Origin: Parapedobacter indicus
GTDB taxonomy: Bacteria > Bacteroidota > Bacteroidia > Sphingobacteriales > Sphingobacteriaceae
NCBI RefSeq assembly: GCF_900113765.1
Contig: NZ_FOQO01000003.1
Coordinates: 62,001-126,000 of the forward strand
DNA length: 64,000 nucleotides
Reading direction: 5' to 3'
The notes under the pieces are model-generated. The model searched no databases. It had not been told where the DNA came from and saw only the letters and a list, made by a program, of their open reading frames with translations. Made by a program: the position numbers and the translations under genes. Below, in pieces: positions 48,437 to 64,000 of the stretch (position 1 is its first letter; every line of letters begins with the position of its first letter).

Positions 48437-48449
48437 ATATTAGTAAAGT

Positions 48450-49196
48450 TTAGTATGTTGCTCGTCCACCAGACAAATCGAAGGTGAAGCCGGTGGTAAA
48501 GCTATTTTCCGGAGATACGATGTACATAGCTAAATTAGCAACTTCCTCCAAGGTACCACAACGTTTCATTGGAATCTTGTCTGTCATATAATTCACTTGT
48601 TCAGCTGGCATCCGATCCACCAAAGCCGTTCGGACAACTGCCGGAGCCAAGGCATTGACAGTAATGCCGGTTTCCGCATACTCTTTGCCCTGTACTTTCG
48701 TCATACCGATCACGGCGGCTTTAGATGCGGAATAGGCCAACATACCTGCGTTGCCTTCTTTCCCCGCGATGGAAGCGATGTGCAGGATGCGACCATAGTT
48801 ACGTTTCAGCATCTGCGGAAGCACATGCTTAGCCATTAAAAAGCTGCCAAAAAAATTAACGTTGAATACATTATGAAGATCACTGGATTCAACTTGATGA
48901 CTTTGGATGTTCGTTACTCCCGTAATGCCGGCACTGTTTATTAAAATATCAATCCGGCCATACTGATCAGTCACCTGCCTAATGACATTTTCGACGGCCG
49001 CTTCTACTGTAATATCCGCCAAAAACCAATTTACCCGGTTGGATTGATCGTCACCGTCAAGTCTTCCCTGTTGTTTATCTATCAATGCCAGACGAACACC
49101 TGCCGCAAGTAATTGCCGGGCAATGGCATTACCAATACCAGATGCAGCTCCGGTAATCACGGCTACTTGATTAGAAAATTGAGTCATATCGAACAT
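48450..49196 (-). CDS. SDR family NAD(P)-dependent oxidoreductase
   Basis: A short-chain dehydrogenase of about 248 residues: TGAASGIG cofactor loop, NSAG motif (INSAGITG), catalytic Ser in HIASIAGKEG and the YSASK catalytic pair, with a typical SGGRATY-like C-terminus. ATGs at 49196 and 49187 are both possible; a TTG at 49202 is unlikely. It is the first gene of a three-gene unit (SDR, dehydrogenase, dipeptidase). The promoter-like box lies only a few bases before the start. Confidence 0.92.
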   Translation of the reverse strand: MFDMTQFSNQVAVITGAASGIGNAIARQLLAAGVRLALIDKQQGRLDGDDQSNRVNWFLADITVEAAVENVIRQVTDQYGRIDILINSAGITGVTNIQSHQVESSDLHNVFNVNFFGSFLMAKHVLPQMLKRNYGRILHIASIAGKEGNAGMLAYSASKAAVIGMTKVQGKEYAETGITVNALAPAVVRTALVDRMPAEQVNYMTDKIPMKRCGTLEEVANLAMYIVSPENSFTTGFTFDLSGGRATY

Positions 49197-49199
49197 AAA

Positions 49200-49207
49200 C
49201 AAAGTTA
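49200..49207 (-). promoter_or_regulatory. -7-type promoter box abutting the SDR start
   Basis: The minus strand reads TAACTTTG, a TAnnTTTG match, 3 bases before ATG 49196 and 12 before ATG 49187. If used, the transcript is leaderless or nearly so. No -33 element was found. Confidence 0.35.
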
Positions 49208-49262: not shown

Positions 49263-50153
49263 CTATAGAGCCGCAGCCGTTTTGGGAGTCACCTCAATCT
49301 GTTTTCTATACTCAGTGGGCGTCATCCGTTTGACGGATCTAAACCTTTTGTTAAAATTCCCCAGGTTATTGAATCCACTGCGGTAAGCTACTTCCATTAT
49401 ATTCAGACTTGATTCCGCCAGCAGCTTACAAGCATATCCTATTCGGATCGTGTTGATATACTCTACAAACGTCATCCGGTAATGTTCCTTAAAAAAAATA
49501 CAAAATGTCGCCACCGCCATACCGGCTACCGAAGCGATTTCTTTTAAGGTGATCTCCCGATCGAAGTTTCTCATGATGTGCTCCGTTACGCGGTCTATAC
49601 GGTTCGAGTAGTCCAAACGAGTATGCTGAATGTATCCCGGACTGGACAGCATTTCGTAATCCGATGTCCGTACTAACGTATCAAATATGCTGAATAAAGT
49701 GGCTAGACGCTGAATACCGTTCATTTCAAGCATCTGCCCCATAAGCAGCGCAATTTTATCTCTTGCATTGCCATGGATGTGCAGACCGCGACTTGACAAG
49801 CCAAGCAGGTACCTTACCCGTTCCATCTCGGGTATCAACAGAAACTTATCCCCTAAAAAGTCAGGTTTAAATTGGATGACAATAGCGTTTGCTATTTGCC
49901 CAGCTCTGCCATTCATATACCGTGCATCGTTTACCCATACATGTGGCAGACAAGGCCCCATGAATACCAGGTCTCCCTTGTCAAAATAACCGATATGATC
50001 GCCCACCATACGTCTGCCGGTACTCTGGGTAACGAGCACCAGTTCATATTCCGGATGATAATGCCATTGGTAGGGGAAAAATTGTCCCCTTTCCTGGAAA
50101 ACGATGAAAGATTTATCATAATCCTGGGGCAATCGTTGTTCGATAATCTTCAT
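49263..50153 (-). CDS. AraC-family regulator with cupin domain (paralogue B)
   Basis: A 296-residue regulator, paralogous to the one encoded at 44648. Shared segments include QWHYHPEYELVLV, STGRRMVGDHIGYFDKGDL, FKEHYRMTFVEYINTIRIG and the GFNNLGNFNKRF helix. The cupin part should bind a sugar or sugar acid. It is the gene just upstream of the SDR unit on the same strand (60-base gap) and divergent from the YdjC gene; it may control either. Confidence 0.93.
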   Translation of the reverse strand: MKIIEQRLPQDYDKSFIVFQERGQFFPYQWHYHPEYELVLVTQSTGRRMVGDHIGYFDKGDLVFMGPCLPHVWVNDARYMNGRAGQIANAIVIQFKPDFLGDKFLLIPEMERVRYLLGLSSRGLHIHGNARDKIALLMGQMLEMNGIQRLATLFSIFDTLVRTSDYEMLSSPGYIQHTRLDYSNRIDRVTEHIMRNFDREITLKEIASVAGMAVATFCIFFKEHYRMTFVEYINTIRIGYACKLLAESSLNIMEVAYRSGFNNLGNFNKRFRSVKRMTPTEYRKQIEVTPKTAAAL

Positions 50154-50226: not shown

Positions 50227-50234
50227 TATCTTTG
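50227..50234 (+). promoter_or_regulatory. -7-type promoter box abutting the YdjC start
   Basis: TATCTTTG, a perfect TAnnTTTG match, ends 3 bases before the ATG at 50238, which implies an almost leaderless transcript or a chance match. Confidence 0.35.
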
Positions 50235-50237
50235 AGC

Positions 50238-51191
50238 ATGATGACAAAATGGTTACCGCGCGACACGCCAAGTCTGGTGTTGACCCTCTGCCTATTGCTC
50301 GGGCACGCAGCTACCGCAACAAGCCAAACCTTGGTAGAACGACTTGGCTATCCCAAGGATGCCATCCTCCTCATCATCAATAACGATGATGCCGGGATGT
50401 GCCATGCGGCTAATACAGGAACCATCAAGGGCCTGCAAGACGGGCTGATCTCCTCGTCCACCATTATGTTTACCTGCCCTTGGGCTACAGAGATCGTGAA
50501 CTTTGCAAGAACTCATCCGGACAAAGATTTTGGCGTGCACCTTACGCTGACATCCGAATGGAAGCATTACAAATGGGGGCCTGTTGCTCCGATCGACCGT
50601 GTCCGCTCATTGGTTGATAGCAATGGGCATTTCTGGAAAGAGGTACAGGAAGTTTACGAACACGGTAATGCCGGACAAGCGTATGAAGAAGGCAAAGCGC
50701 AGATTGAAAAGGCCTTGTCTTATGGGTTGCCCATTACGCATATCGACTCGCATATGGGAACTTTTCAATTGGATCCGGCTTATTTTGAACAATACGCACG
50801 TTTGGCCAAAACATTTAATTTACCACTGCGCATGGCTTCCCAAGCTACGTTAGAAAAATACGGTCAGGGCGAACTGCGCGAAAAATGCGCCCAATTGGGA
50901 TTGGTGTTTCCTGATTATCTGATCTACGAAGAGTTGCAGAACTACGGAGAAGTGGAAGATTTTTGGGTGAGCATCATCGACAACCTGAAACCCGGCGTGA
51001 CGGAATTGTTTCTGCATGCTTCTGAGCTGACTCCGGAGTTGGAAGCGATAACCGGAACAGCCCGCAAACGGTCGGACGAATTAAAAGCTTTTACCGAGAG
51101 CGGGAAAATCAGGGATGCCTTAGCCAGGAAAAACGTGCAGCTCATCAGCTATAGGCCCCTGTTGGAATTGCAACGGGCATCAACCCCCTAA
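50238..51191 (+). CDS. YdjC/ChbG family carbohydrate deacetylase-like protein, secreted
   Basis: A 317-residue YdjC-fold protein with a signal peptide (LTLCLLLGHAATATSQ). Metal-site features of the family are kept: the Asp pair in IINNDDAGMC, a His in DFGVHLTLTSEW and a His in THIDSHMGTF. ChbG removes an acetyl group from chito-oligosaccharides; other members have unknown carbohydrate substrates. Starts at 50238 or 50241. Its stop overlaps the convergent SDR gene by 4 bases. Confidence 0.88.
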   Translation: MMTKWLPRDTPSLVLTLCLLLGHAATATSQTLVERLGYPKDAILLIINNDDAGMCHAANTGTIKGLQDGLISSSTIMFTCPWATEIVNFARTHPDKDFGVHLTLTSEWKHYKWGPVAPIDRVRSLVDSNGHFWKEVQEVYEHGNAGQAYEEGKAQIEKALSYGLPITHIDSHMGTFQLDPAYFEQYARLAKTFNLPLRMASQATLEKYGQGELREKCAQLGLVFPDYLIYEELQNYGEVEDFWVSIIDNLKPGVTELFLHASELTPELEAITGTARKRSDELKAFTESGKIRDALARKNVQLISYRPLLELQRASTP

Positions 51192-51964
51192 GCATTCAAT
51201 CCGCCGTCCATTAAAATATTCTCACCGTTAATATAGGCACCTGCTTCAGAAGCTAGCAGTACAACCAGCCCTTTGATGTCGTCGAGGTTAGCCATCCGGC
51301 CTAATGGAACCTTTTTGCAGTAGTTTTTCAGGAATTGCTCCGGTTGGTTATTGAACAGCCCTCCGGGGCTGATGCAATTGAAACGGACGTTTTTACCTAC
51401 ATGCATTTTGGCCATGTACCGTGTCAGATTAATCAAACCCGCATTATGGAAGAAATAGTCCGGAGGTAGATCACCCATATTCGTACCCTCGTAATTAGAC
51501 AAATCAGGCCCCTTCATCCCCATCATCGAGGCGATGTTAATCACGCTACCCCCACCCGAGCGAGTAATCAGATCCGTCATTTCCCGTAGCAGGTGAAACA
51601 TCCCTGTGGCATTGTCTCGCATGGATTGATCAAATTGTTCTAATGGAGCGCCGTACCCTTTCATCGGGCGCGACACAGCATTGTTCACAAACCCATCCAG
51701 CCTTCCAAATCTTTCTGTGATCTGCCGCTTCAATGCATCCACAGAATCAGGAACCGCCTGATCAACCACCATGCCATGCACGTCATAGCCAACCTGACGG
51801 AATGATTCGGCGGTATCCGCCGCACGCTGCCGATTACGGGACGTCGTGATCACGGTAGCATCGGCTTCAGCAAGCCCCTCCACCATGCACTTCCCATATT
51901 GACCCGAGCCTCCGGTAACCACAATAACTTTATTTTTTAAACTCAACAGTTCCTTTACGTTCAT
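51188..51964 (-). CDS. SDR family protein with altered catalytic lysine position
   Basis: A 258-residue short-chain dehydrogenase: cofactor loop TGGSGQYG near 16-23, VNNAVSRP in place of NNAG, and catalytic Ser in INIASMMGMKG. The usual YxxxK reads YFFHN, so the catalytic Lys is replaced by Asn while the Tyr and following helix (AGLINLTRYMAK) are kept. The C-terminus has LMDGGLNA. It is the last gene of the long minus-strand operon, 9 bases after the Gfo/Idh/MocA gene. Catalysis may be lost or use another residue. Confidence 0.9.
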   Translation of the reverse strand: MNVKELLSLKNKVIVVTGGSGQYGKCMVEGLAEADATVITTSRNRQRAADTAESFRQVGYDVHGMVVDQAVPDSVDALKRQITERFGRLDGFVNNAVSRPMKGYGAPLEQFDQSMRDNATGMFHLLREMTDLITRSGGGSVINIASMMGMKGPDLSNYEGTNMGDLPPDYFFHNAGLINLTRYMAKMHVGKNVRFNCISPGGLFNNQPEQFLKNYCKKVPLGRMANLDDIKGLVVLLASEAGAYINGENILMDGGLNA

Positions 51965-51973
51965 GGCAATTTC

Positions 51974-52894
51974 TTAGGATAGTGAAATACGTTTTCCGTT
52001 CTCTAAACGGCTTTCATTTGCCGCTAGGATTACGTTTATAAGCCGATAAGTGTCTTCAAAAGGCAGACGCGCTTTTCCTTCCTGTACGGATCGGACAAAT
52101 TCGATGAGGTTATCGCGGAACATTGAATAGGAATTCCGGATATCTACCAGCTTCCAATTATTGGTTCCAAAAAAAGACAGTTGGAAGGTTCCTGAAATGG
52201 AGTTAAACAGATGAAGCATCACATCAGGGCCACGGACCGTTTGCACATGTACAATTTCCCGATCCAATGCACCGATATGTTGCACACTTAGCGGTTTCAA
52301 GTCTTCCATCACTGTAAATACGGCCTCTAGCAGGTGAATGCCATATTTCTTCCAGTCCTTTTTCCCTACGGCTGTAACCAATTCAATGTTGCCTAAGTTG
52401 GCCAGCTCCTGTTTGGCAACACGGCATTCATTGGCATAACGCATCGATGAGCATGACATGATGAATCGCCCTTTCCGGGCGTGGCCCGCAAACCATTCCA
52501 AGTCTTCGCGTGAATAGGCGAGGGGTTTATCGATAAAAATAGGAATCTTAGCTTCAATAAATGGCTTGGCCATCGCCACATGGTTTTCGGGATCATCCCG
52601 CCCCAAAATCACTGCGTCCACCTGACCCACCATCTCATCCAATTGCTCTACTACGGTCGTAATGCCCGATGATTGTGCAATGCTTTCTGAAACGATGCGT
52701 TTTTGGCACCACACATGGGTCACGGCTGCGTCCGGAATACCCAATGTGTCTCGGTTAGCTTCCAAATAAGCGGTCACCGCCGGGTACCCTAGCCGATTAA
52801 TTTCCGCGCCGTCAAAACGTCCATTGATGATGGAGGACCAAGAATAGGGATGCGCATTCCCTTCACTCAATCCAATAATACCTATACGAATCAT
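51974..52894 (-). CDS. Gfo/Idh/MocA family oxidoreductase, short form
   Basis: A 306-residue cytoplasmic oxidoreductase. The loop is IGLSEGNAHPY rather than GxGxxG, and the lysine motif is DKP (IFIDKPLAYS). Its loop and size resemble the Tat-signal protein encoded at 9996 more than the standard members. The ATG at 52894 overlaps the stop of the aldo/keto reductase gene as ATGA, which supports that start over an upstream TTG. It is part of the sugar-acid operon. Confidence 0.87.
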   Translation of the reverse strand: MIRIGIIGLSEGNAHPYSWSSIINGRFDGAEINRLGYPAVTAYLEANRDTLGIPDAAVTHVWCQKRIVSESIAQSSGITTVVEQLDEMVGQVDAVILGRDDPENHVAMAKPFIEAKIPIFIDKPLAYSREDLEWFAGHARKGRFIMSCSSMRYANECRVAKQELANLGNIELVTAVGKKDWKKYGIHLLEAVFTVMEDLKPLSVQHIGALDREIVHVQTVRGPDVMLHLFNSISGTFQLSFFGTNNWKLVDIRNSYSMFRDNLIEFVRSVQEGKARLPFEDTYRLINVILAANESRLENGKRISLS

Positions 52895-53844
52895 AACCAA
52901 CCCTTTTTATCCCATTCTGTTAGATTCAAGAACGCCGGATCCGGATAGGCTAACGCCTGAGCTTCTTTCAGCAAATCCTCGTCCATATATACACCATTGA
53001 CCGCGTCCAGCGCGTCTTCCAAATAATCCTGTTTATCAATCCCGACCAACACAGCGGATACCTCCGGATGAGCCAGTGCAAATTTTGTGGCCAATTGTGG
53101 CAAATGAGTAAACCCGGCACGCAACAGGCTTCGATATTTACCCAAGTGGGCCTCAACATCTTTGAGAGCCGGATGTAATTTAGACATCCGATCGCTCAGC
53201 ATCCCCCTCATCAGCACGGATCGGACAATGAGGCCGATTCCTTCGCGGGCTGCATCCGTAAAGTATGTACCTTGGCTTTGATCCATCAGATTGAAGGGCA
53301 ATTGTATGGCGTTCCACTCCTTGCACTGGATCGCACGCCTCGTTTCCTCGGTTTTATATACCGACACCCCGATGGCCCTAACCGTGCCTTCTTCGCGCAG
53401 TTTCGTGAATACCCGCAGCAAGTCTTCATTCGCTAGTAAGTTCTGGTCGGCATAATGAACCATATACAGGTCGATGTAATCGGTACCCAATGCCTGCAGG
53501 CTTTCCCTCAGGGAAGCACGCACCAGCTCATTAAGCCCGGCATACGAAGGAATTTTCCCTTCCGGGTCCCTAAGGTGCCGGCATTTTGTGGCCAGCACAA
53601 CTTCCTGTCGTCTGCCGTAAAAAGCATTCCCCATGATGCGCTCACTTTCGCCATAGAGCCTCGCCGTATCAAAAAAGTTGATTCCGCAGTCTAGCGCGTT
53701 GTGCAACAATTTAATGGCATCCGCTTCGGTCAGCATATCCGCTTCACTTTTGACACCAATACCATACGGTAGACCGATTTCAACACCCCCAAAGGCGATT
53801 TCGGAAATCTGTATCCCCGTATTTCCCAACGCTCTTTTCTGCAT
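52891..53844 (-). CDS. aldo/keto reductase
   Basis: A 317-residue aldo/keto reductase with the catalytic tetrad visible: Asp in FDTARLYG, Tyr in LYGESE, Lys in LATKCRH and His in DLYMVHYAD. It resembles the L-fucose/D-threo-aldose dehydrogenase branch (opening RALGNTGIQISEIAFGG), which oxidises aldoses to lactones. That fits a sugar-to-sugar-acid step in this operon. It lies 10 bases after the aldolase gene. Confidence 0.9.
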   Translation of the reverse strand: MQKRALGNTGIQISEIAFGGVEIGLPYGIGVKSEADMLTEADAIKLLHNALDCGINFFDTARLYGESERIMGNAFYGRRQEVVLATKCRHLRDPEGKIPSYAGLNELVRASLRESLQALGTDYIDLYMVHYADQNLLANEDLLRVFTKLREEGTVRAIGVSVYKTEETRRAIQCKEWNAIQLPFNLMDQSQGTYFTDAAREGIGLIVRSVLMRGMLSDRMSKLHPALKDVEAHLGKYRSLLRAGFTHLPQLATKFALAHPEVSAVLVGIDKQDYLEDALDAVNGVYMDEDLLKEAQALAYPDPAFLNLTEWDKKGWL

Positions 53845-53854
53845 TTCAGTTTAT

Positions 53855-54649
53855 TTATTGTTCCAAATACGATTTGCCCTGCGTTCCTTTTTGTCCAAAA
53901 GCGCCAACGATATTCCGGCAGTAATCTTTCAGCCCGACCACGTCGGCACCCACACTCACGAAATGGTAACCCATTTCTGTCAAATCCTGCAGATTGGCCG
54001 CCGAACCGACGGTAGCGGCGTATTTGCCATGCCGGTTGGCCACTTCGGCGACACGCCTCCGCGTTTCCAATAACAGCGGATGGTCCCATTGCCCCGGGGC
54101 TCCGATGCCCTGACTGAAATCGCCGGGACCGAAGAACAACATATCGAATCCATCCAGTTGAGCGATTTCCTCCAATTCATTCAACGGCTCGGGATCCTCA
54201 ATTTGCAACACAACGAAGCGTTCGCGATTGGCTGACATTAAATAGTCGCTGAAATCCAACGCTGTATATGCGCCATCGGCATTACCCCCATCAATCGGTC
54301 GTCGACCGACGGGATGGAAACGGGTCATATGGATGACCTTTTTAGCGTCTTCCACACCCATGATATGAGGCACTAGTATACCCGTCGCGTCCATTTCTAA
54401 CGGCTTGACATAGTCACTATACGAACCACGTGGCACACGCACCATCAAGTCGGCATCGTGCGCCTTGGTTGCCCATACGTGGGAAGCAATGACCGACCAA
54501 TCCTGGCCGATATGCTCTAAGTCTACCCATACGCAATCGAAACCGGCTATCGCGGCGATCTCGGAAACCTGTGCATCTTTCAGGTTAACTTTAAAGCAGC
54601 TGGCGATTTCTCCGGACCGCAATTTATTCAGCACCTTACTTGTTCTCAT
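53855..54649 (-). CDS. HpcH/HpaI family aldolase
   Basis: A 264-residue class II aldolase of the HpcH/HpaI family. Signature parts are FDCVWVDLEHIGQDW, the metal-binding Glu in VLQIEDPEPLNE, and FGPGDFSQGIG. The family cleaves 2-keto-3-deoxy sugar acids, for example rhamnonate- or glucarate-derived ones, to pyruvate and an aldehyde. It is therefore the likely carbon-cutting step of the operon, 14 bases after the permease gene. Confidence 0.9.
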   Translation of the reverse strand: MRTSKVLNKLRSGEIASCFKVNLKDAQVSEIAAIAGFDCVWVDLEHIGQDWSVIASHVWATKAHDADLMVRVPRGSYSDYVKPLEMDATGILVPHIMGVEDAKKVIHMTRFHPVGRRPIDGGNADGAYTALDFSDYLMSANRERFVVLQIEDPEPLNELEEIAQLDGFDMLFFGPGDFSQGIGAPGQWDHPLLLETRRRVAEVANRHGKYAATVGSAANLQDLTEMGYHFVSVGADVVGLKDYCRNIVGAFGQKGTQGKSYLEQ

Positions 54650-54663
54650 ATATCGAAATAACG

Positions 54664-55899
54664 TTATTCATCAATCGGTTTGATTTTCGGCTTTAGCCGG
54701 AAAAGCAATAGCGCACAAACCACCATGCTTAATGCTGCTAGCTGGAATATAAACGTAAGATTTACCTGCTCATCCCGCAAAGCGCCAGCAACATAAATTC
54801 CGATCCCACCAATGACGCAACTGCAAAGATTCAAAAATCCGTAACCCGTTGCAAGATAGCGTTTATCGGCAATCATGCCCAAGATAGGCATCATGTTCGC
54901 ATCAATAAACGGTCTTGTCAACGCATAAACGAGGAAACCGACAACCGTAGCCCATAGCAGCATGGTGTAGCTGGCTATAAACACGGCAGGTACAGCAATA
55001 AGGAAACCGATAGCAGGCAACCACATCCGTGCCCTAGAATTCGTCTTGGACCACCAGTCGGCCAGCGCCCCCCCACCGATGACACCAACCAACATAGCCG
55101 GAAAAAAATAGGCGGTGGAGTATACACCGGCTTCCGTTTGAGATAGGTCAAACTTCTCTTTGTAAAAGGTTGGCAACCAGCCGTTCACCATCCAACTAAT
55201 CGCTCCAGCTATGCCCCAGATAATTAAAACTACAATAAACGAAGGATTTCCGAACAATCGCTTCAGTGCGACTCGAAAATCTGTTTGTTCTTCTTGTGAA
55301 ACGACATCTATCGTTTCCTCCTCGGTGTTAGCCTTCGGATCACGCAGGAAAAACACCAATATGACTGCATAGCCAATGCCGACAATTCCAAAAATACTGA
55401 AAGCATAATGCCAACTATGGGTTTCAGCCAACCAACCTCCAATAAATCCCAAGCTTTGGCCAACCATGACTCCCGCCACATGGATACCGGTAGCGGTAGA
55501 TCTTGTCTTACCCGTGTGCCAATCCATGATCAGCGCCATCGCAGCGGGCATATAGCATGCTTCACTGATTCCCATCAACGCCCGTGCCGCCAACAACTGT
55601 TCGAAAGAAGTAGCCAAGGAGGTCAGCCAGGTAACTAATGACCAGAAAAATAAGCTACCGATAATGACCTTGCTCCGGTTAAAGCGATCTGCGAGATAAC
55701 CAGCAAATGGACTTGCAAACCCATATACCCAAAGAAAGACAGAAGTTAATAGACCGAACTCCGCATCCGTCATGGGAACGACTTCAATGATACTTGTTCG
55801 CATGGTGGTGATTGTCATGCGGTCAAGGTAATTAAGTGCTCCAACTATGCATAGGAGTGCTACCAAAAGCCAGGGGTAATACCTTCGTTTACGAATCAT
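54664..55899 (-). CDS. MFS transporter, anion:cation symporter (ACS) type
   Basis: A 411-residue permease with about 12 helices and ACS-family features: LNYLDRMTITTMR after helix 1, GYLADRFNRSKVI in loop 2-3, and ALMGISEACYMPAAMALI in helix 4. ACS members move hexuronates, galactonate, glucarate and similar organic anions with protons. In this operon that points to an acidic sugar as substrate. It overlaps the next upstream gene by 11 bases. Confidence 0.9.
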   Translation of the reverse strand: MIRKRRYYPWLLVALLCIVGALNYLDRMTITTMRTSIIEVVPMTDAEFGLLTSVFLWVYGFASPFAGYLADRFNRSKVIIGSLFFWSLVTWLTSLATSFEQLLAARALMGISEACYMPAAMALIMDWHTGKTRSTATGIHVAGVMVGQSLGFIGGWLAETHSWHYAFSIFGIVGIGYAVILVFFLRDPKANTEEETIDVVSQEEQTDFRVALKRLFGNPSFIVVLIIWGIAGAISWMVNGWLPTFYKEKFDLSQTEAGVYSTAYFFPAMLVGVIGGGALADWWSKTNSRARMWLPAIGFLIAVPAVFIASYTMLLWATVVGFLVYALTRPFIDANMMPILGMIADKRYLATGYGFLNLCSCVIGGIGIYVAGALRDEQVNLTFIFQLAALSMVVCALLLFRLKPKIKPIDE

Positions 55900-56218
55900 C
55901 TGCTTGGTTTTTTTCGAGCCTACGGGTCATTTTCATAACCTTGTAAGCTGCCGCTGCATGAATATCTGCATTATACGAAGCTACATCGACATTCCTCAAT
56001 TGATCATACAATCGGAATAAGATTTTTCGATCGTCCGCTTCCCCCCGCTCCGCCAGTCCCTGAAGCGGTTGCTGAGTTTTGATGAAATCACTTAGTGCCT
56101 GTTCTTTCACATCGGATATGGGCATGGCCTGTGAATTTACTTTTTTTGGAATAGCCAATACAGCTACGAGGATGAATATCGTGAACACCGCCAAAAACAG
56201 GTTAAGCCTTACCAACAT
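55889..56218 (-). CDS. small membrane-anchored protein of unknown function
   Basis: A protein of about 109 residues with one N-terminal helix ([21 protein letters not shown]) and a charged helical domain outside ([35 protein letters not shown]). I do not recognise it. It starts at ATG 56218, inside the end of the SDR gene (10-base overlap), and overlaps the permease start by 11 bases. That tight coupling on both sides suggests a required partner, perhaps of the permease. Confidence 0.7.
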
Positions 56219-56988
56219 GTCCAACCTCCGTCAACGACAATGGTCTGGCCCGTGATGTATGAAGCCGCATCTGACAAAAGAAAAGCGACGGTACCGGCAA
56301 TCTCGAGAGGCTGTCCAATCCGCCTCATGGGAACACGGGCCTCGATACGTTCGACAAAGTCAGGATGCTGACTTTGAACAGTAGGATTGGGAAATGGGCC
56401 CGGAGCAATGACATTGCACCGTATTTGTTGTTCGGCCCAATGGACGGCCATGTATTTAGCCATATGTCGAATAGCTGCTTTACCCACGCCATATTCTATT
56501 GGATTTTTATTCATCGGCTTTTTATACACGGACGGATATGGCGCGACGAGCCCATACATACTAGCGCATAAGACAATACTTCCTTGGTTTCGGGCGACCA
56601 TAGCTTGCCCTATTAGGCGACTTATGTGAAAAACAGCAGTTATGCCGCCATGATTGACTTCATCAAATTCGTCGGGCGTAAGTTCCTCAAATGCTTTACT
56701 AGTGGAGGCAAATGTCAAGTTCACAAAACCATCTGGACAACCATTGGTCGTTATTTCCTTCGTCACGAATGAAGACACAGCATCTAAATCCGTTGCGTCC
56801 AAACTAATAGGAATCACGTTTTCTCCCAATTCATGCGCAACGACAAACGCTTTTGCCCGATCCGCCAGATCGATGCATAGCACACGCGCCCCCATTTCGC
56901 TCAACAAGGTTACCACTGCGCTGCCTAAATAACCGGCGCCGCCCAGTACCCAAATCAATCTGCCGCTTAAACTAAATAATTCACCCAT
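56209..56988 (-). CDS. SDR family NAD(P)-dependent oxidoreductase
   Basis: A 259-residue short-chain dehydrogenase from ATG 56988 (a TTG at 57027 would overlap the sialidase-like gene and is less likely). Features: GGAGYLG cofactor loop, catalytic Ser in LCASMYGLV and the intact pair YGVGK, ending in VDGGWTCW. Unlike the SDR encoded at 51188 it keeps the catalytic lysine. It is likely the active alcohol/ketone step of the pathway. Confidence 0.9.
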
Positions 56989-57010
56989 ACCTAACTGAAT
57001 CCAGTAGCCC

Positions 57011-58186
57011 CTATTTTTCCGCGTCAATTTCTATAATGGTTCCCGCGATATGCCGTAATCCATTTTCTTTATTAAAATAATAGACAACCAGCACGCGATT
57101 ATTATCCAATTGTACGGGCCATGTATAGCCCAGATCACCGTTCCCGCCATCTGTCCGCAGGACGATCTCCTGTGAGGTATCCCAGTCTGTGCATTCAGCG
57201 TTCAGTATACGTGCGCGGATACCAAATGGCTTATGCCGATATCCATAGGTAACCAACACGCGGCCATCGGGCAATTGCAACGCATTCAATGGGTGTCCTT
57301 GAAATCCCATAGATTGCCATTGAAACGTTTTCCCGCCATCCGTCGACCTTGCGATTACCGCTTGGTCATCGTAACCCGCGGTGCGCAGGAATCCCACAAT
57401 ATCGCCATTTGGTGTTTCGATTACAGAAGCCTCGTTAAAGGAAACGGTAGGATCTTCCGCCACTACACCGGAATATTCCCAGGTCAGCCCCTTGTCTTTT
57501 GAGACCAACAGGTAATTGGATGTTTTTTTAACACCGTCGTGCGCAGCAACGATCCACAGTATGCGTCCATCTTTTGCCTCATACAAAGCGCCACGGTTAT
57601 AAGCCGGCACGGGTTCGTTAAACACGTTATAATGCCGCTCCTGTGTAACATGAGGTGGATAATAGGGTCCCTCCCAGGTTTTACCGCCATCGGTAGAGCG
57701 TACGAGATAGCCCCCCAAGAAGATAAATCCACCCGACTCAAAATAAGGCTGCTTTACTTTTGCATCATCCCTAACAGTTGTCCATCCGTAACTTGTGCAA
57801 AGCAGGGTTCCGTCCTTGAGCTGAAGCAGGCAAGGGTCCTGCGATCCGCCAAATGCATGTGCGTAAATTAAATCCGGAGCCGGGGTCCACGTCTCTCCGT
57901 CCGTGGAACGTACACCAACTAAATAACTATTATGGTCAACGTGATTGTTGTCTTGCTCCCCATATATCCTCCGATTCGGAGCACGTCGGAAAGCCACTAA
58001 TAATTCGCCGTCGGGTTTCTTTACGACCGAAGGAAATGTGCTGTAAAACATGGAATCCTGGTAGATCATTACATCTTTAATTTTGCGTACTTCAACAGCA
58101 CGTCTTTCCTTCCCTTGACCAAACGAAATTGATGATATACCTAAAATCAATAAGAGGGCGAGTGCAAGATCTCTACTAAAACACAT
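57011..58186 (-). CDS. BNR-repeat sialidase-superfamily protein
   Basis: A 391-residue secreted six-bladed propeller protein with a signal peptide ([19 protein letters not shown]). Four Asp boxes are visible: [34 protein letters not shown] and [12 protein letters not shown]. An early Arg and a VAFRRAPN segment fit the sialidase superfamily. True sialidase activity is doubtful because the full Arg triad and Tyr/Glu pair cannot be assigned by eye. The ATG at 58186 directly precedes the signal peptide. It could cleave an acidic sugar that the permease then imports. Confidence 0.82.
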
Positions 58187-58192
58187 AATCAA

Positions 58193-58297
58193 AATTTATC
58201 AACAGCCGACTTTTGGTTTTAATTTAAGGACCTCAAGTAGGGTATGGTTACAGCACGAACAAATGAAGGAATTGAGAAAGCAATTTACATAAAAATA
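58193..58297. other. 105-base gap inside the operon
   Basis: An AT-rich spacer between the propeller and sialidase-like genes. No terminator or perfect TAnnTTTG box was found; a CAAAATTTA on the plus strand is off by one in spacing. An internal promoter is possible. Confidence 0.35.
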
Positions 58298-59773
58298 TTA
58301 ATTAAATTTAAAGGAATAAAGATCCGCATCTTTCAAGTAGAACTTTAATCGAATGGGTCTACCAGCCAATTCAGAAACATCTTTTTGTTTTTGCCACGAA
58401 ACAATTCTTGCTATTTCATTACCAATTATTTCTTGTGTTTCAGAAAATGAATACCCTGAAATTGGCCGCTGTTCCTCATCCAGAATTTCAACTTTAACCG
58501 ATCCTGCAGCCGATGTTGAATAATTAATTTCAAGCTCACTTCCATTAAATATAAACGGCTTCGTAATAACCTCCCCTCCATCGTAGCCTGCAGAAAGGGA
58601 GGCAAAACCGTCTATCCGTAATGAATACCTTTTTACATGAGCTGACGGTTGTGCATAACTTTCATTTAGATAAATCGAAATTTCAGACGGACTGGTTTCG
58701 ACAACGTTGAGTACGGGATAATTTGAACGAGAGACCCAATTTTCCAATCCAATCCCCGGGCGAACAAACGACTCCATAAATGTTCTATCGTATTTATTGC
58801 CTCCCCTACTGCTCATTAGGACAGCGTCGGAACAGTCTTTATAATAATTTGGATTGACATTCATCTTAGCAGCCTGCTCTTCAGACACAACTTGCCTATT
58901 AGGCATGAATCGTGCGCCTATTGCCAGGTAAATATGAGGTGCACGATAATAAGGACTGGTCTGTTGAGTGTATAAATGTTCCAGTGGAGTATCGCCAAAC
59001 GTCATCGCTTCCGGTGCCGACCAGTTCACAAAATCCTTGGACACGGTGCGGCTGACAGACCGAAATCCTTTATATGCCGTAAACCCCCCGTCAGACCAAG
59101 TCCGAAAGTAGCAAACATACTGGCCTTCATGTTCCGACCAAAATACCACATTCTGCGAATCAAACACTCCGGTCTGAAAAACTGCTTTGTCTTGTTTCTT
59201 TTTCCAATGTATCCCATCTTCAGAGATGTACGCAAGTAATCCACTTCTGTCAGTACCTCCCACCGCCTTATAACGTTCTTCTCGTTTTGCATTCGGATTG
59301 GAATCAAGAAAAGGGCTAAAATTATGCGTTGCGGGAGCAGCATGAGCTAGTATAACATTATTTTCTGATGTACCATCGATCGTATAAATACCAAGTGAAG
59401 GTTTTGTCCAATTGACGCCATCCGTTGATTCGGCATAACAGGTGACTTCGTTATCATTACCATCTTTCCCCGCTTCTCGAATACCTCGATAATACATCCT
59501 GTATAAATCACCGTCTTTTATTATGGTACAGTACCCTGAAAAATTACCCTCCCAAGGCTTATCAAAACTCAGAACAGCACCTTCGTTAACCGGATGATGC
59601 ATCTTTTGATTGACATTATCCATCTTATCCAATAAGTAGCGATCTACAAACAGTTCTCTTCGATTATCGATGCGCACAGGTTCATCTGTTTGCGCCGATA
59701 ATTGGAATGAAGCCACGAAAAACATATAAAAGAGTACGATTATCGACTTTGGATTCTTCATATTATAATTCAT
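58298..59773 (-). CDS. secreted beta-propeller plus beta-sandwich protein, GH43/GH32-like
   Basis: A 491-residue protein with a signal peptide (VASFQLSAQ). The first 350 residues form a five-bladed-propeller-like domain with repeated LFVDRYLLDKMDNV, YAESTDGVNWTKPSLGIY and YISEDGIHWKKK segments and a conserved ELFVDRYL start. The last 120 form a beta-sandwich (FIFNGSELEINYSTSA). Similar proteins are common in Planctomycetota and Bacteroidota glycan loci without an assigned activity; the fold recalls GH43/GH32/GH117. Starts at 59773 or 59761 are both ATG. It lies 41 bases after SusD. Confidence 0.8.
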   Translation of the reverse strand: MNYNMKNPKSIIVLFYMFFVASFQLSAQTDEPVRIDNRRELFVDRYLLDKMDNVNQKMHHPVNEGAVLSFDKPWEGNFSGYCTIIKDGDLYRMYYRGIREAGKDGNDNEVTCYAESTDGVNWTKPSLGIYTIDGTSENNVILAHAAPATHNFSPFLDSNPNAKREERYKAVGGTDRSGLLAYISEDGIHWKKKQDKAVFQTGVFDSQNVVFWSEHEGQYVCYFRTWSDGGFTAYKGFRSVSRTVSKDFVNWSAPEAMTFGDTPLEHLYTQQTSPYYRAPHIYLAIGARFMPNRQVVSEEQAAKMNVNPNYYKDCSDAVLMSSRGGNKYDRTFMESFVRPGIGLENWVSRSNYPVLNVVETSPSEISIYLNESYAQPSAHVKRYSLRIDGFASLSAGYDGGEVITKPFIFNGSELEINYSTSAAGSVKVEILDEEQRPISGYSFSETQEIIGNEIARIVSWQKQKDVSELAGRPIRLKFYLKDADLYSFKFN

Positions 59774-59814
59774 TTAACTTGTAAAAAAATAGATCATTTA
59801 GATATGCTTACCTT

Positions 59815-61287
59815 CTATTGGTATCCAGAATTTTGTGTAACCTTGGGTTCGGCGCTTAGTATATTTAATGAAAGCGGCCACAGGTATTTATACGTATCTT
59901 GCGGATGCTCTTTAAAGTAAGGAATAAGCTCGTTAGCTCTATCGAAGCGCAAAATATCCCACCAATATTTTCCCTCATATAGCAGTTCTAATAATCGTTC
60001 TTCCAGAATTGCTGTGTCATTGTCTTCTTTGCTACCGCTAACAAACCTGTATTTTTCAAAATTGTCTCCGTATGCCCGTGCCCTCACGCGATTCATTACT
60101 TCAGACGGATCTTGATTCAATGCGTTTTGTGCTTCTGCTTTCATCAATAATACATCTGCATACCGATATAAAACTACATCGTCTAAAAAATATCTCGCGC
60201 CTCCGTCAATCATGCCATTAAATTTACGCTGTATGCAACCGTAAAATTTAGAATACGTCCCTGTATTCGGGTCCAAACTGTACAACTCCGTAAATGACGC
60301 GGATTTCCGCTGATCTTCATCGCTAAATTTGGCTAACACATCCGCCGTTAACGTCCAATAATTTCCTCCTCCGATCGTGCCAATAATTTCCAGTGCATCT
60401 GGATCCGAATTAGGTGGATATGCATCGATATACATATTTGCCATAAAGGTATTCGACGCTTCAAATCGAGCAAACGTATTTGCCATGATAATTTCGCGAT
60501 TACCTTTATTGGTATAATCAAAAATACTTTCAAAGCTATCCAGTAAGGTCACATCTGACTTTTCAACTTCATTCAACGCAGTCAAAGCTTCCTGAATATC
60601 CGCATCGCCACCTGTCAATCTCTTACCTGTCCATAGGTACACATCCCCTTTCAATGCATTCACCCCCGGCTTAGACCACCTGTTACGGCCGTTAGCGAAA
60701 TCGTCGTCCGGAAATAATGCTAACGCATTGGCTATATCTGATTTTATAAAGTCGAATATCTGTTCAACCGAGGTACGCTCCTTATAAATTACTGCGGGAT
60801 TATATCCTTCGGTAGGCTCGGTTACTAACGGGACACCGCCCCATGTCTTTGCCATCACAAAATAGCAAAAAGCCCGCATGGTATATGCTTCCGCAATAAT
60901 CCGCTGCTTTTGACTTTCAACATTGAAAGTAATAGAGGGAACATATTTGATGACAAGATTAGCGTCGTTTACGACTTGATATAGCGAATTCCAATCTGGT
61001 CCCGCGGTGGTTGCATCAAGTGTATTGTCAAAATTTCGAAGATTGCTGAAATCATTCCCAACAGATTGACGGAGATTTTGGCTTCTAGATTCTCCCCAGA
61101 TATATAGATTAGTGGCCGTCACCCCCCTTAGCCGGGCATACATTCCTCTTATTGCACCATTGGCGTCGTCTTCCGTCTTCCAAAACGAGGCAGTAGATAT
61201 AATGCTGATCGGCTCCAAATCCAAGTTTTTTGTACAACTTATAGCTATCCAACAGAAAAAGGCGTAAAAAATAGAATATCTTTTCAT
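59815..61287 (-). CDS. SusD/RagB-type nutrient-binding outer-membrane lipoprotein
   Basis: A 490-residue SusD-family lipoprotein (cysteine at residue 18, AISC). Hallmarks are RAFCYFVMAKTWGGVPLV and the C-terminal LEERLLELLYEGKYWWDILR. It lies 15 bases after the SusC gene and before the propeller protein gene. The region is AT-richer than the middle of the window. Confidence 0.95.
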   Translation of the reverse strand: MKRYSIFYAFFCWIAISCTKNLDLEPISIISTASFWKTEDDANGAIRGMYARLRGVTATNLYIWGESRSQNLRQSVGNDFSNLRNFDNTLDATTAGPDWNSLYQVVNDANLVIKYVPSITFNVESQKQRIIAEAYTMRAFCYFVMAKTWGGVPLVTEPTEGYNPAVIYKERTSVEQIFDFIKSDIANALALFPDDDFANGRNRWSKPGVNALKGDVYLWTGKRLTGGDADIQEALTALNEVEKSDVTLLDSFESIFDYTNKGNREIIMANTFARFEASNTFMANMYIDAYPPNSDPDALEIIGTIGGGNYWTLTADVLAKFSDEDQRKSASFTELYSLDPNTGTYSKFYGCIQRKFNGMIDGGARYFLDDVVLYRYADVLLMKAEAQNALNQDPSEVMNRVRARAYGDNFEKYRFVSGSKEDNDTAILEERLLELLYEGKYWWDILRFDRANELIPYFKEHPQDTYKYLWPLSLNILSAEPKVTQNSGYQ

Positions 61288-61302
61288 GACACAAATGTTA
61301 AA

Positions 61303-64000
61303 TTAGAAGGTAATCGATGCACCGAAAATAAATGACCGTGGATTTGGATATGCAGCATCAGAATTGGTCTGCTCCGGGCTCAACCCTCCGTACTTTGTAA
61401 AGTAATATAGATTTGCGCCCGTTAGGTTTATCCGGAAATCAGCGATACCCAGACGATCTACAATCGATTTTGATAAGCCATACCCGATGGTTACTTCTCT
61501 CAAACAAAGGAAATCCAGTTTCTCATAGTGTCTTGAATTCCCGCGCCCCCCCCAGACATTCCACTGTGCATTCTGATCTGCCCAATAATATCGGGGAACG
61601 TCAGTGATATCTCCCTGATTTTGCCAGGATCTACGCATGTTCGCGCTAATGGCATTCGCACCGGAAAAATTGCCTTCCATTCGGGCGACCGCTTCATTGT
61701 AAATTGTAGCACCTATCGTATAATCCATTCGGACCGAAAGACTGAGATTTTTATAACTGAAATTGTTCGTGAGTCCTCCTGTGATGCGAGGGATAGAATT
61801 ACCCATATACACACGGTCTCTCGTGTCGATTGTGTCATTACGATCCACATCTAACCAGTTTACATCCCCGCCGTATTTAGTCTTATCAGTCCTAGGAATC
61901 AACATATCCACAGGTCCTTGCATTGCCTCTTCATCAGTAGCATAAACACTGACTTGCTTGTAAGCATATAAATCTCCGATCCGCTGCCCTTCTTGCAGTC
62001 CTCCCAACCAAGCATAATCTCCTTTTTTGGGATCGTATACATAAACGCCTCCAACCCTATTATATTCAATCCCATTTTCAGGTAATCTCAGTATTTTACT
62101 ATTAACCGTCGCTGTATTAAATGCCAGATTCCACTGAAAAGCTGAGGTTGGCTTTAGTATATGAGTATTCAGTTCTATTTCATACCCTTTATTTTCTAAC
62201 GAACCATAATTGGTAAGTATAGTGGCAAAACCCGTCGACGGCGGCAAATTAAGTGAAGTCAACAAATTGTCGGTAACCCTGCGGTAATAATCAAATATGA
62301 TGTTTATTCGATTGTTAAATAATCCCAGATCAAACCCAACATCTGCAGTCTTAGAACGTTCCCATTTTAAATCCTGATTCGGCAATGTTGTGATCTGTAT
62401 ACCGGCGTCGCCATCATAACGAGTAGATGCACTATATTCTCCTTGTGCTTGGTATAACCCCAATCCACTGATATTGCCTGTTACGCCATAGCTGCCTCTT
62501 AATTTCAGCCTAATCAGATCTTCTGGAAATATACTCCAGAAATTTTCCTTATCTAAATTCCAACCCAATGACGCTCCCGGAAATAACCCCCATTTATTGT
62601 TTTCTCCTAAATTCGAGGCCCCATCGTAGCGCAAACTGACATTAAGCATGTATTTTCTCTTAAAATTATAGGTAGCCCGAGAGAAATAGCCAATTAACGC
62701 ATGTTGCGTTTCCGATCCAGCAACCGCCGTGGGAGTAGCAGACGCGTTTAACGTTGGGATAATATCGGTTGCGGCATCTGCACCATTAGCGGATAGCGAA
62801 ATATTATTTGCACCTAAATATGAAAATCCGCCTTTCACTTCAACATCATGATCGGAATTGAAGGTCTTACCATAGGTCAGTATGGCGTTGAACTGAGGTC
62901 TTGAGGCATCTGAATAAGATCCAGAGGCATTACGAGAAGTAACTAGCGTAGTTGGGCCATTTAAGTAGCTTTTTAAAAAATTCCGTGAATACGCTCCGCG
63001 GTACTGAAAAGAAAATTGCGGACTGAATGTTAGATTGGGTACAATTTCCGCTTCAGCGCCAACAATCATCGTTAAATCGTTAACTTTGTTTTTCGGGTTA
63101 TAAACCGACATTCTATAAAATGGATTGGAATAGCTAAAGTTCCTCCCCGGCGAAAGCGTTCCATCCTCAAAATAAAGTTTGTTTGTGGTTGGTGCTATTA
63201 ATGAGGACTTAAATACATCGACAGTCGGAGCTTGTCTATCGCCTTTATTCGCGTAAAGAATCCGCGCATACAATTTCACCTTATCAGACAAATCCAACTC
63301 ACCATTTAAATTAAGCGAAAGTCTTTTATAATCGGTTTGTATGGCAATACCTTGATTATCAATATATCCTAATCCTAGATAAAATCGAGACTTTTCGTTT
63401 CCGCCGGAAACAGAAAGTGCATGATTATGCGAAAATGCATTTCTGAATAACATGCTTTGCCAGTCTGTCGTTGAAAAGAGCAACGTTCGTGATGGATCTG
63501 CAGGATCCGGTATACTCTCCCAGCCTTCATCCAATTTATACTGGTTTTCGGGCGTTAGGTATTGGAGCGAACTGGTAGTTGTATTGGAAAGATCATTACC
63601 TGCTCCACCCAAGTAAACATTTCCGTCCAAATTTGAGAGGTATGTAGGATTTATGCTGCCTGTCGCCAATAAACCTAGACGAGCAAAATAAACTTCTTCA
63701 GCGCCGGTTAAAATATCAAATGTTTTACCCACCCGAGAACTTGCTAAATCTACTTTATAAGTTACCCGCGCTTTCCCGGATTCTCCCGACTTCGTTTCAA
63801 CAATAACAACCCCATTGGAACCTTGCGCTCCATAAATAGCAGTTGCTGCCGCATCTTTCAGTACTTGAATTGATTTTATGTCATGTGCACCTATGTCATT
63901 CATATTACTTCTCAACACACCATCAATTATATAGATAGGCGGTGAACTATTCGGGTTGTTAATCGATGTACCTCCTCGGATGATAATATTGGGGGCAGCA
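61303..64000 (-). CDS. SusC/RagA-type TonB-linked receptor, 5' part outside the window
   Basis: 899 codons of a SusC protein are present; the start lies beyond the right edge, so signal peptide, carboxypeptidase-like domain and TonB box are not seen. The visible part begins in the plug (NIIIRGGTSINN, then IQVLKDAAATAIYGAQGSNGV) and runs through the barrel to FIFGASITF. It is the first known gene of the long minus-strand operon and should open the outer membrane for its substrate. Confidence 0.95.
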   Translation of the reverse strand, partial: AAPNIIIRGGTSINNPNSSPPIYIIDGVLRSNMNDIGAHDIKSIQVLKDAAATAIYGAQGSNGVVIVETKSGESGKARVTYKVDLASSRVGKTFDILTGAEEVYFARLGLLATGSINPTYLSNLDGNVYLGGAGNDLSNTTTSSLQYLTPENQYKLDEGWESIPDPADPSRTLLFSTTDWQSMLFRNAFSHNHALSVSGGNEKSRFYLGLGYIDNQGIAIQTDYKRLSLNLNGELDLSDKVKLYARILYANKGDRQAPTVDVFKSSLIAPTTNKLYFEDGTLSPGRNFSYSNPFYRMSVYNPKNKVNDLTMIVGAEAEIVPNLTFSPQFSFQYRGAYSRNFLKSYLNGPTTLVTSRNASGSYSDASRPQFNAILTYGKTFNSDHDVEVKGGFSYLGANNISLSANGADAATDIIPTLNASATPTAVAGSETQHALIGYFSRATYNFKRKYMLNVSLRYDGASNLGENNKWGLFPGASLGWNLDKENFWSIFPEDLIRLKLRGSYGVTGNISGLGLYQAQGEYSASTRYDGDAGIQITTLPNQDLKWERSKTADVGFDLGLFNNRINIIFDYYRRVTDNLLTSLNLPPSTGFATILTNYGSLENKGYEIELNTHILKPTSAFQWNLAFNTATVNSKILRLPENGIEYNRVGGVYVYDPKKGDYAWLGGLQEGQRIGDLYAYKQVSVYATDEEAMQGPVDMLIPRTDKTKYGGDVNWLDVDRNDTIDTRDRVYMGNSIPRITGGLTNNFSYKNLSLSVRMDYTIGATIYNEAVARMEGNFSGANAISANMRRSWQNQGDITDVPRYYWADQNAQWNVWGGRGNSRHYEKLDFLCLREVTIGYGLSKSIVDRLGIADFRINLTGANLYYFTKYGGLSPEQTNSDAAYPNPRSFIFGASITF

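Follow-up and report, generated by a model that had tools for sequence, protein, structure and literature searches.

The window analysed here, the whole 64,000-nucleotide stretch of Parapedobacter indicus DNA (C22:62001-126000 of a 6.16-Mb genome), holds on its right side one half of a run of 22 same-strand genes. Judged by gene content, homology, synteny and fold, this run is probably a catabolic polysaccharide utilisation locus (PUL) for a nonulosonic acid (NulO, the sialic-acid family) other than ordinary N-acetylneuraminic acid (Neu5Ac). Its novelty would lie in a sialic-acid-type PUL that carries a class II pyruvate aldolase where the NanA lyase is expected. Below, C21, C22, C23 and C31 are contigs of the same genome (G000), L numbers are DNA stretches around loci and G numbers are sampled genomes.

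The window half consists of eleven open reading frames (ORFs) on the minus strand, from 51188 to the window end, in the order SusC, SusD, PROP, BNR, SDRa, ANC, MFS, ALD, AKR, GFO and SDRb. Families were assigned with Pfam and NCBIfam, SusC being named by eye. These genes and two neighbours are as follows.

61303-64000, minus strand: SusC/TonB-dependent receptor, cut by the window edge (full gene of 1070 amino acids at L003:3303-6515)
59815-61287, minus strand: SusD lipoprotein, NanU-like (NCBIfam NanU, PDB 4l7t)
58298-59773, minus strand: PROP, secreted five-bladed beta-propeller, glycosidase-like (GH32/43/130-like fold in a structure model)
57011-58192, minus strand: BNR, secreted GH33-fold protein, ortholog of PDB 5hx0 (Dfer_1899, unknown function)
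56209-57027, minus strand: SDRa, short-chain dehydrogenase (SDR; Pfam adh_short_C2)
55889-56224, minus strand: ANC, apparently a shortened copy of a secreted HEAT-like protein (homology to related loci)
54664-55899, minus strand: MFS, major facilitator superfamily permease (TIGR00893, paralogues)
53855-54649, minus strand: ALD, HpcH/HpaI-family class II pyruvate aldolase (PF03328, tree)
52891-53844, minus strand: AKR, aldo/keto reductase (PF00248, 160 bits; tree)
51974-52900, minus strand: GFO, Gfo/Idh/MocA oxidoreductase with a GNxHPYSW signature (Pfam, tree)
51188-51964, minus strand: SDRb, short-chain dehydrogenase (Pfam; NCBIfam PRK09186)
50232-51191, plus strand: YdjC/ChbG-type carbohydrate deacetylase, a divergent neighbour of uncertain membership (same gene in one of 80 related loci)
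49263-50153, minus strand: AraC-family protein, candidate regulator (homologue in 29 of 80 related loci)

The original prediction, made from the window alone, described an eleven-gene operon with gaps mostly under 45 bases or overlaps. The ORFs, their common strand and their families were found as named, and nine of the ten distances lie below 45 bases, the remaining one being 105 (from SDRb to SusC: 9, -10, 10, 14, -11, -16, -17, 105, 41 and 15 bases). The tight same-strand unit stands; its limits do not, as SusC crosses the window edge and the unit is about half of the run. The same strand goes on rightward with eleven more genes (PROP2, GH43, DTA, CERAM, DPEP2, NADHX, GSAT, HADH2, RIDA, RRAA and SDR4). 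In the 24 kb past the window (L003, L004), they encode a second PROP (PROP2, without a hidden Markov model (HMM) match), a GH43-family protein, a D-serine-dehydratase/alanine-racemase-like pyridoxal phosphate (PLP) protein, a ceramidase-like amidohydrolase, an M19 dipeptidase-like protein, two 3-hydroxyacyl-dehydrogenase-like proteins, a class III aminotransferase, RidA, an RraA-like protein and an SDR (SDR4, named by eye). PROP2 is flanked by gaps of 277 and 506 bases, wide enough for the run to be read as several transcripts, so that it may comprise more than one operon.

In the pathway that we propose, a NanU-like SusCD pair would import the NulO or a NulO-containing glycan, two secreted propellers, BNR (GH33 fold) and PROP (GH32/43/130-like), would trim the glycan in the periplasm, and the MFS permease would carry the free NulO inward. 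The free sugar may then be oxidised and reduced at its hydroxyls by four enzymes with NulO-tailoring relatives in biosynthetic clusters (SDRa, SDRb, AKR and GFO), which would bring it into a cleavable form. The HpcH/HpaI aldolase would split it between C3 and C4 into pyruvate and a six-carbon amino sugar, which is the task of NanA elsewhere. Finally, the amino sugar would be degraded by the right-hand block, with its M19-like and ceramidase-like amidohydrolases, class III aminotransferase, D-serine-dehydratase-like PLP enzyme, RidA and 3-hydroxyacyl-dehydrogenase-like proteins.

The aldolase is the centre of this scheme. By sequence, ALD belongs to the HpcH/HpaI class II pyruvate aldolases (PF03328, 86 bits against a cut-off of 25) and keeps their active site: D43, E45, H46, R71, E151 and D177, which we take to be the catalytic positions of these enzymes, are retained and are identical in GarL and YfaU (the list of invariant residues includes one outside row, from Sulfitobacter). 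Three curated NCBIfam models stay below their cut-offs, namely HpaI (115 bits, cut-off 369), GarL (112, 407) and RhmA (82, 441). In the tree, ALD and its relatives fall outside the characterised clades and form a clade of their own (100/100) against four outside rows: GarL, YfaU, the Sulfitobacter enzyme and a distant paralogue. The closest named relative, at 95%, is from Parapedobacter defluvii. Among plasmids, 723 records hold an ALD relative, all below 60% identity, with the 25 best at no more than 32.8%. The Sulfitobacter plasmid relative (30.5%) was considered as sharing the context and rejected, since it adjoins an L-arabinonate dehydratase.

According to excerpts of a review (PMC10017367), sialic-acid aldolases work via a lysine Schiff base, and the Kdn-specific one from Sphingobacterium is called NanA. 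We infer that ALD may be a metal-dependent NulO aldolase in place of the Schiff-base lyase, which would mean a change of mechanism. No NanA lyase of the DHDPS superfamily is found among the genes of the run, the nearest NanA-model matches of the genome lying on other contigs; the run is thus better described as a variant working like a NulO catabolic PUL than as a strict member of that class.

The uptake genes point in the same direction. SusD is matched by the NCBIfam NanU model at 265 bits (cut-off 425) and by NanU itself (PDB 4l7t) at 2.6e-58. In a genome scan with the NanU model, in which 99 of 236 first-look candidates were scored, the SusD of the operon came first with 257 bits, followed by proteins with 144 and 90 bits. 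The one with 144 bits sits in the sialidase locus of the genome on C21, whose SusC is 35% identical to that of the operon. The NanU paper (PMC3969230) reports a Kd of about 0.4 uM of NanU for sialic acid, and in its excerpts the residues behind this binding are given as not known. The MFS permease scores 150 bits with TIGR00893 (cut-off 395), and its closest paralogues (59, 55 and 45% at C31, C23 and C21) each have, no more than about 8 kb away, a gene that is best matched in NCBIfam, below cut-off, by N-acetylneuraminate lyase. Sialic-acid transporters are placed in both the sodium:solute symporter and MFS families in the review excerpts (PMC10017367).

In its AlphaFold model (pLDDT 90), BNR has the GH33 sialidase fold. 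The best structural match is 5hx0 (Z 58.9, 67% identity), and the 49 next best rows of 992 aligned chains, with Z from 33.0 to 35.4, are all sialidases except one titled as a designed metalloprotein. When BNR was aligned by hhalign with the genome's own sialidase-like proteins, a Tyr, a Glu and one Arg, presumably catalytic in sialidases, paired with Y356, E254 and R270 of BNR, which are invariant in 24 of 24 rows. For PROP, Pfam gives no match, and the structural comparison (Foldseek and closer alignment of a model with pLDDT 78; 9fj8 with Z 22.2, root-mean-square deviation 3.0 and 269 aligned residues) indicates a fold class, not a family.

A link between BNR and NulO tailoring comes from a plasmid of Maritalea myrionectae, where one protein (L105:3298-6042), apparently without a signal peptide, fuses CTP_transf_3, Aldo_ket_red and BNR. 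It adjoins an SDR, whose best match in the operon is SDRa (35%), and its cluster holds NeuB, an acylneuraminate cytidylyltransferase (NeuA), an AGE epimerase and a sialyltransferase. As described in excerpts of PMC12053666, EpaA (CTP_transf_3 and Aldo_ket_red) and EpaB (an adh_short_C2 SDR) jointly convert Pse5Ac7Ac into 8ePse5Ac7Ac, as followed by nuclear magnetic resonance. A scan of viral contigs found no EpaA-like AKR, and searches of phage records with AKR and SDR returned generic-looking matches among the best 12 of 55 and 15 of 82 records.

GFO provides a second link. Searches of two overlapping samples of 296 and 395 genomes gave matches in 15 genomes. Three matches reach at least 55% identity (the window, G331 and G456), all with ALD nearby. 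Nine homologues lie at 31-42% (eight in sampled genomes and one on a Halorussus plasmid); NeuA and/or NeuB are present in the stretch for eight of these, and the ninth, on a 5.2-kb contig, is accompanied by a PseC-like aminotransferase and a Polysacc_synt_2 protein. Weak Gfo matches (below 85 bits) have NulO genes beside them in none of four cases. The context counts leave out the second matches G456:C29 and G000:C22:72248. Two of the NulO clusters were typed: PseB, PseC and PseI are above the curated cut-offs in both, PseG is above in one and just under in the other, and PseF is under in both. In the tree, the family rows printed carry the GNxHPYSW signature with changes at one or two positions, while three Tat-type Gfo outgroups stand on a branch of 3.19 and a fourth alone on one of 4.97. 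By signature and tree position, the window GFO belongs to the GNxHPYSW Gfo family common to NulO clusters. A "30%" homologue from L045 was dropped as a member, as it falls with the outgroup in the tree and is of another Gfo family. On two haloarchaeal plasmids (L117, L118), distant Gfo genes (28-29%) adjoin ceramidase-like genes, in L118 also a class III aminotransferase, which echoes the right-hand block without the aldolase operon.

The AKR tree divides the family. The AKRs of seven ALD loci (L067, L075, L079, L099, L101, L102 and L103; from Clostridia, Verrucomicrobiota, Kiritimatiellota, Lentisphaerota and one Bacteroidota bin) share one side of a 100/99 branch with seven AKRs of NulO clusters, and the AKR paralogue of the C23 locus of the same genome is also on this side. 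In this tree, every fourth row of the main group was used, L062 and L100 were left out, and L138 and L140 are identical (one paralogue twice). For SDRb, the best NCBIfam model is PRK09186 (175 bits, cut-off 255).

The block recurs in other genomes. Scanning one genome per species in 84,980 species, we kept 80 ALD loci of 95 relatives; they span Bacteroidota, Planctomycetota, Verrucomicrobiota, Kiritimatiellota, Lentisphaerota, Calditrichota, Armatimonadota and Bacillota. In a sample of the same order, ALD occurs at E <= 1e-40 in 19 of 300 genomes (its own included) and in four of 17 genera. Sixty-four loci have at least 3.2 kb of ORFs downstream of ALD (six were excluded because no plus-strand ALD ORF was picked, and ten for short flanks). 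AKR, GFO and SDRb are among the next five same-strand genes in 44 of these, and the exact order ALD-AKR-GFO-SDRb is found in 40. This association is more than chance. Over all 80 loci, the counts are 62 for AKR, 62 for SDRb, 59 for GFO, 37 each for SDRa and MFS, 36 for BNR, 34 for CERAM, 30 for GSAT, 25 for DPEP2, 21 each for RidA and PhyH, 17 for PROP and 16 for SusD, where any match to the named protein is taken, distant paralogues included, several loci are short and many other ORFs are unannotated. A sodium:solute symporter (Pfam SSF, checked on two members) occurs in 19 loci and is found together with MFS only in L047, so that one transporter seems to replace the other.

ANC had been read as a small anchor. 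It instead matches the C-terminal part of a secreted HEAT-like protein of about 300 amino acids and thus looks like a shortened copy; Pfam gives no match. The HEAT-like protein was found by BLAST in 42 of the 80 loci and is fused to a sodium:solute symporter in seven ORFs.

Part or all of the right-hand block (RidA, HADH2, GSAT, NADHX, DPEP2 and CERAM) follows ALD-AKR-GFO-SDRb in Dyadobacter, Spirosoma, Runella and Cyclobacterium, sometimes with SDRa in between. This is why the two halves of the 22-gene run are probably parts of a single system. The place of the right-hand block is taken in Mariniphaga, Calditrichia and some Clostridia by NagA-like, NagB-like and FGGY-kinase genes, in sets that vary between loci and are not always complete; NagA-like genes occur in seven and NagB-like in six of the 80 loci, the NagB-like protein being without a Pfam match and named by eye. 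A recurrent block of ceramidase-like, FGGY kinase, NagB-like and NagA-like genes accompanies ALD in L074, L091, L041, L044 and L103, again not all in each locus. On the left side of the window (46374-49202), a dipeptidase, a 3-hydroxyacyl dehydrogenase and an SDR resemble in kind DPEP2 and HADH2 of the right flank, and relatives (64-67%) of all three adjoin the ALD block in L049.

The genome also has an ordinary sialic-acid-type locus (C21:458-476 kb; L005, L114). It encodes two BNR/neuraminidase-like proteins, one with PF14873 (N-terminal domain of BNR-repeat neuraminidase), three sulfatases and an O-acetylesterase-like protein (named by eye), a NanA-type lyase (PRK04147, 174 bits, cut-off 281) and an N-acetylneuraminate-epimerase-like kelch protein (137 bits, cut-off 416). 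Another locus (C23:684-702 kb; L131) combines a NanA-superfamily lyase, an AKR of the NulO side, an SDR 38% identical to SDRb, a kelch mutarotase-like protein, an MFS permease (53-55%) and an aminotransferase 74% identical to GSAT of the right flank; it looks like a sister pathway with a NanA-type lyase where ALD stands in the operon.

Among known systems, the NanOU/NanA PUL (Tannerella forsythia, Bacteroides fragilis and here C21:458-476 kb) shares with the run a NanU-like SusD with SusC, a sialidase-fold secreted protein, an MFS permease and an aldolase expected to give pyruvate; the run differs in the HpcH/HpaI aldolase in the place of NanA, four oxidoreductases and the amidohydrolase/PLP block, and no kelch mutarotase was seen in it. 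The EpaA-EpaB 8-epimerisation of pseudaminic acid in Acinetobacter baumannii prophages resembles it, by architecture, in the AKR and adh_short_C2 SDR, a likeness extended by the Maritalea fusion with the BNR type of the operon, whereas the run has no cytidylyltransferase, a catabolic context and an AKR of the other branch. In the NulO-biosynthesis cassettes of L110, L111, L120 and L124, a GNxHPYSW GFO adjoins an AKR in all four and an SDR in three, but with GFO at 31-42% identity, and those clusters have NeuA/PseF, PseC, PseG and NeuB/PseI-type genes and no ALD. In the NanOx/NanX system for 2,7-anhydro-Neu5Ac, an aldolase is similarly preceded by an oxidoreductase and an MFS permease; however, NanOx, presumably of the Gfo type, works with NanA, and the system has no HpcH/HpaI aldolase.

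Several observations weigh against a NulO as the substrate. Just two SusD models came up in NCBIfam, one of them NanU, and SusD scores below the NanU cut-off. BNR has T52 where the RIP arginine would stand, and the alignment shows no conservation of the usual acid/base Asp, so BNR may not be a sialidase. Of three plasmid BNR contexts viewed (22 records matched), only that of Maritalea is a NulO cluster: the Azospirillum homologue is in a glycosyltransferase cluster with no NeuA/NeuB in the stretch, and the Rhizobium one has no NulO genes nearby. The identity of GFO to its biosynthetic relatives, given above, is low, and among seven plasmid GFO matches the best alone (Halorussus) has a NulO-cluster context; the others are at 24-29%, with no NeuB/NeuA in four haloarchaeal contexts, an aminosugar-like locus around H28 and an unannotated record for H30. 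The window AKR and the main Bacteroidota AKRs fall on the other side of the tree, with six generic AKRs of the genome. The best-known relatives of ALD have 2-keto-3-deoxy hexarates and rhamnonate as substrates, and ALD itself was not seen in the nine biosynthetic NulO clusters. DHDPS-family genes (cluster U14) occur in five and NanA-like genes (relatives of the C21 NanA or the C23 lyase) in two of the 80 loci. Some loci also carry GH20, GH43-like and sulfatase genes (the GH20 and sulfatase ones recognised by eye), which suggests a mixed glycan.

The strongest competitor, which we nevertheless regard as unlikely, is the classical 2-keto-3-deoxy route: an aldonate or uronate, the sugar acid being made by the oxidoreductases, would be dehydrated by an enzyme encoded elsewhere and split by a GarL/RhmA-like ALD. 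The acidic sugar and retro-aldol chemistry of the original prediction are supported by our data. In the 24 kb beyond the right edge, where ten L003 proteins were compared by HMM and SDR4 with the L004 ORFs by eye, we saw no sugar kinase. The dehydratase that the prediction had declared missing, of the enolase or IlvD type, is likewise unseen there, but the need for one, or for an oxidoreductase in its stead, is unsupported: if the substrate is a nonulosonic acid, it is already a 2-keto-3-deoxy acid and the absence needs no explanation. The classical route gains from HpaI and GarL being the best curated models for ALD (both far under cut-off), from the best MFS model being named "D-galactonate transporter", from an IlvD/Edd-family gene on C21 (L005:3129-4829) and from an enolase-superfamily cluster in five of the 80 loci; the last two, and an FGGY kinase cluster, also in five, lean towards the original prediction. 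Yet the run has no dehydratase, the enolase cluster is unseen in the other 75 loci (not all ORFs being annotated), and the SusD, BNR, GFO and AKR evidence favours NulOs. The E. coli GarL and RhmA (YfaU) systems do resemble the run in having a transporter gene next to an HpcH/HpaI aldolase whose active-site residues are identical, but both have a dehydratase next door (garD, rhmD), their aldolases are outside the ALD clade, and no SusCD, sialidase-fold protein or SDR/AKR/GFO set was found in the stretches seen. The amidohydrolase-, PLP- and RidA-type genes of the right half would suit an amino sugar better than a uronate or aldonate.

Less probable still is a non-amino 2-keto-3-deoxy acid, Kdn or Kdo, as the substrate, with the right block unrelated. 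Excerpts of the review (PMC10017367) report a KDNase and a Kdn-specific aldolase for Sphingobacterium, but call that aldolase NanA. Moreover, the amino-sugar-like right block is joined to ALD-AKR-GFO-SDRb in the four genera named above, and NagA/NagB-like genes occur in other loci. Muramic-acid catabolism was also considered, MurQ-like genes flanking four loci on the other strand (by eye), and was dropped as the run has no such genes.

A role in salvage or tailoring, in which an imported NulO would be epimerised for use in the surface glycan of the cell itself and not degraded, is very improbable: the nearest non-catabolic AKR-GFO-SDR sets are biosynthetic, but an aldolase and a long hydrolase/PLP block travel along, relatives of NeuA, NeuB and PseG at E <= 1e-10 are present in none of the 80 ALD loci within the stretches covered, and the genome gives no match to NeuB (a CMP-NulO synthetase elsewhere in it was not searched for). 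The same NeuB search was positive in nine of 14 control genomes, and the oxidoreductases of the run are thus not biosynthetic there.

Within a NulO catabolic PUL, a more specific and tentative possibility, which we hold to be rather doubtful as yet, is a dedicated degradation of 5,7-diamino NulOs, i.e., pseudaminic (Pse) and legionaminic (Leg) acids and their 8-epimers. SDR/AKR/GFO redox epimerisation would be followed by class II retro-aldol cleavage, and the right block would strip both amino groups of a 2,4-diamino-2,4,6-trideoxyhexose. Many bacteria make Pse- and Leg-type acids. NulOs are reported in the extracellular polymeric substances of sludge in excerpts of PMC8053191 and PMC10483923. 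Among the matches listed from one literature collection, judged by titles and the starts of abstracts, none dealt with a Pse/Leg catabolic pathway, lyase or hydrolase.

If the NulO assignment is true, a candidate pathway could be named in 80 loci from several phyla, PDB 5hx0 would gain a function, and the class II aldolase and the NulO epimerases may become useful as tools. The run would represent a new microbial route for eating the acidic sugars that coat other microbes. Should the substrates be 5,7-diamino NulOs, environmental bacteria would have a way to use other microbes as food through their capsules, flagella and biofilm matrix.

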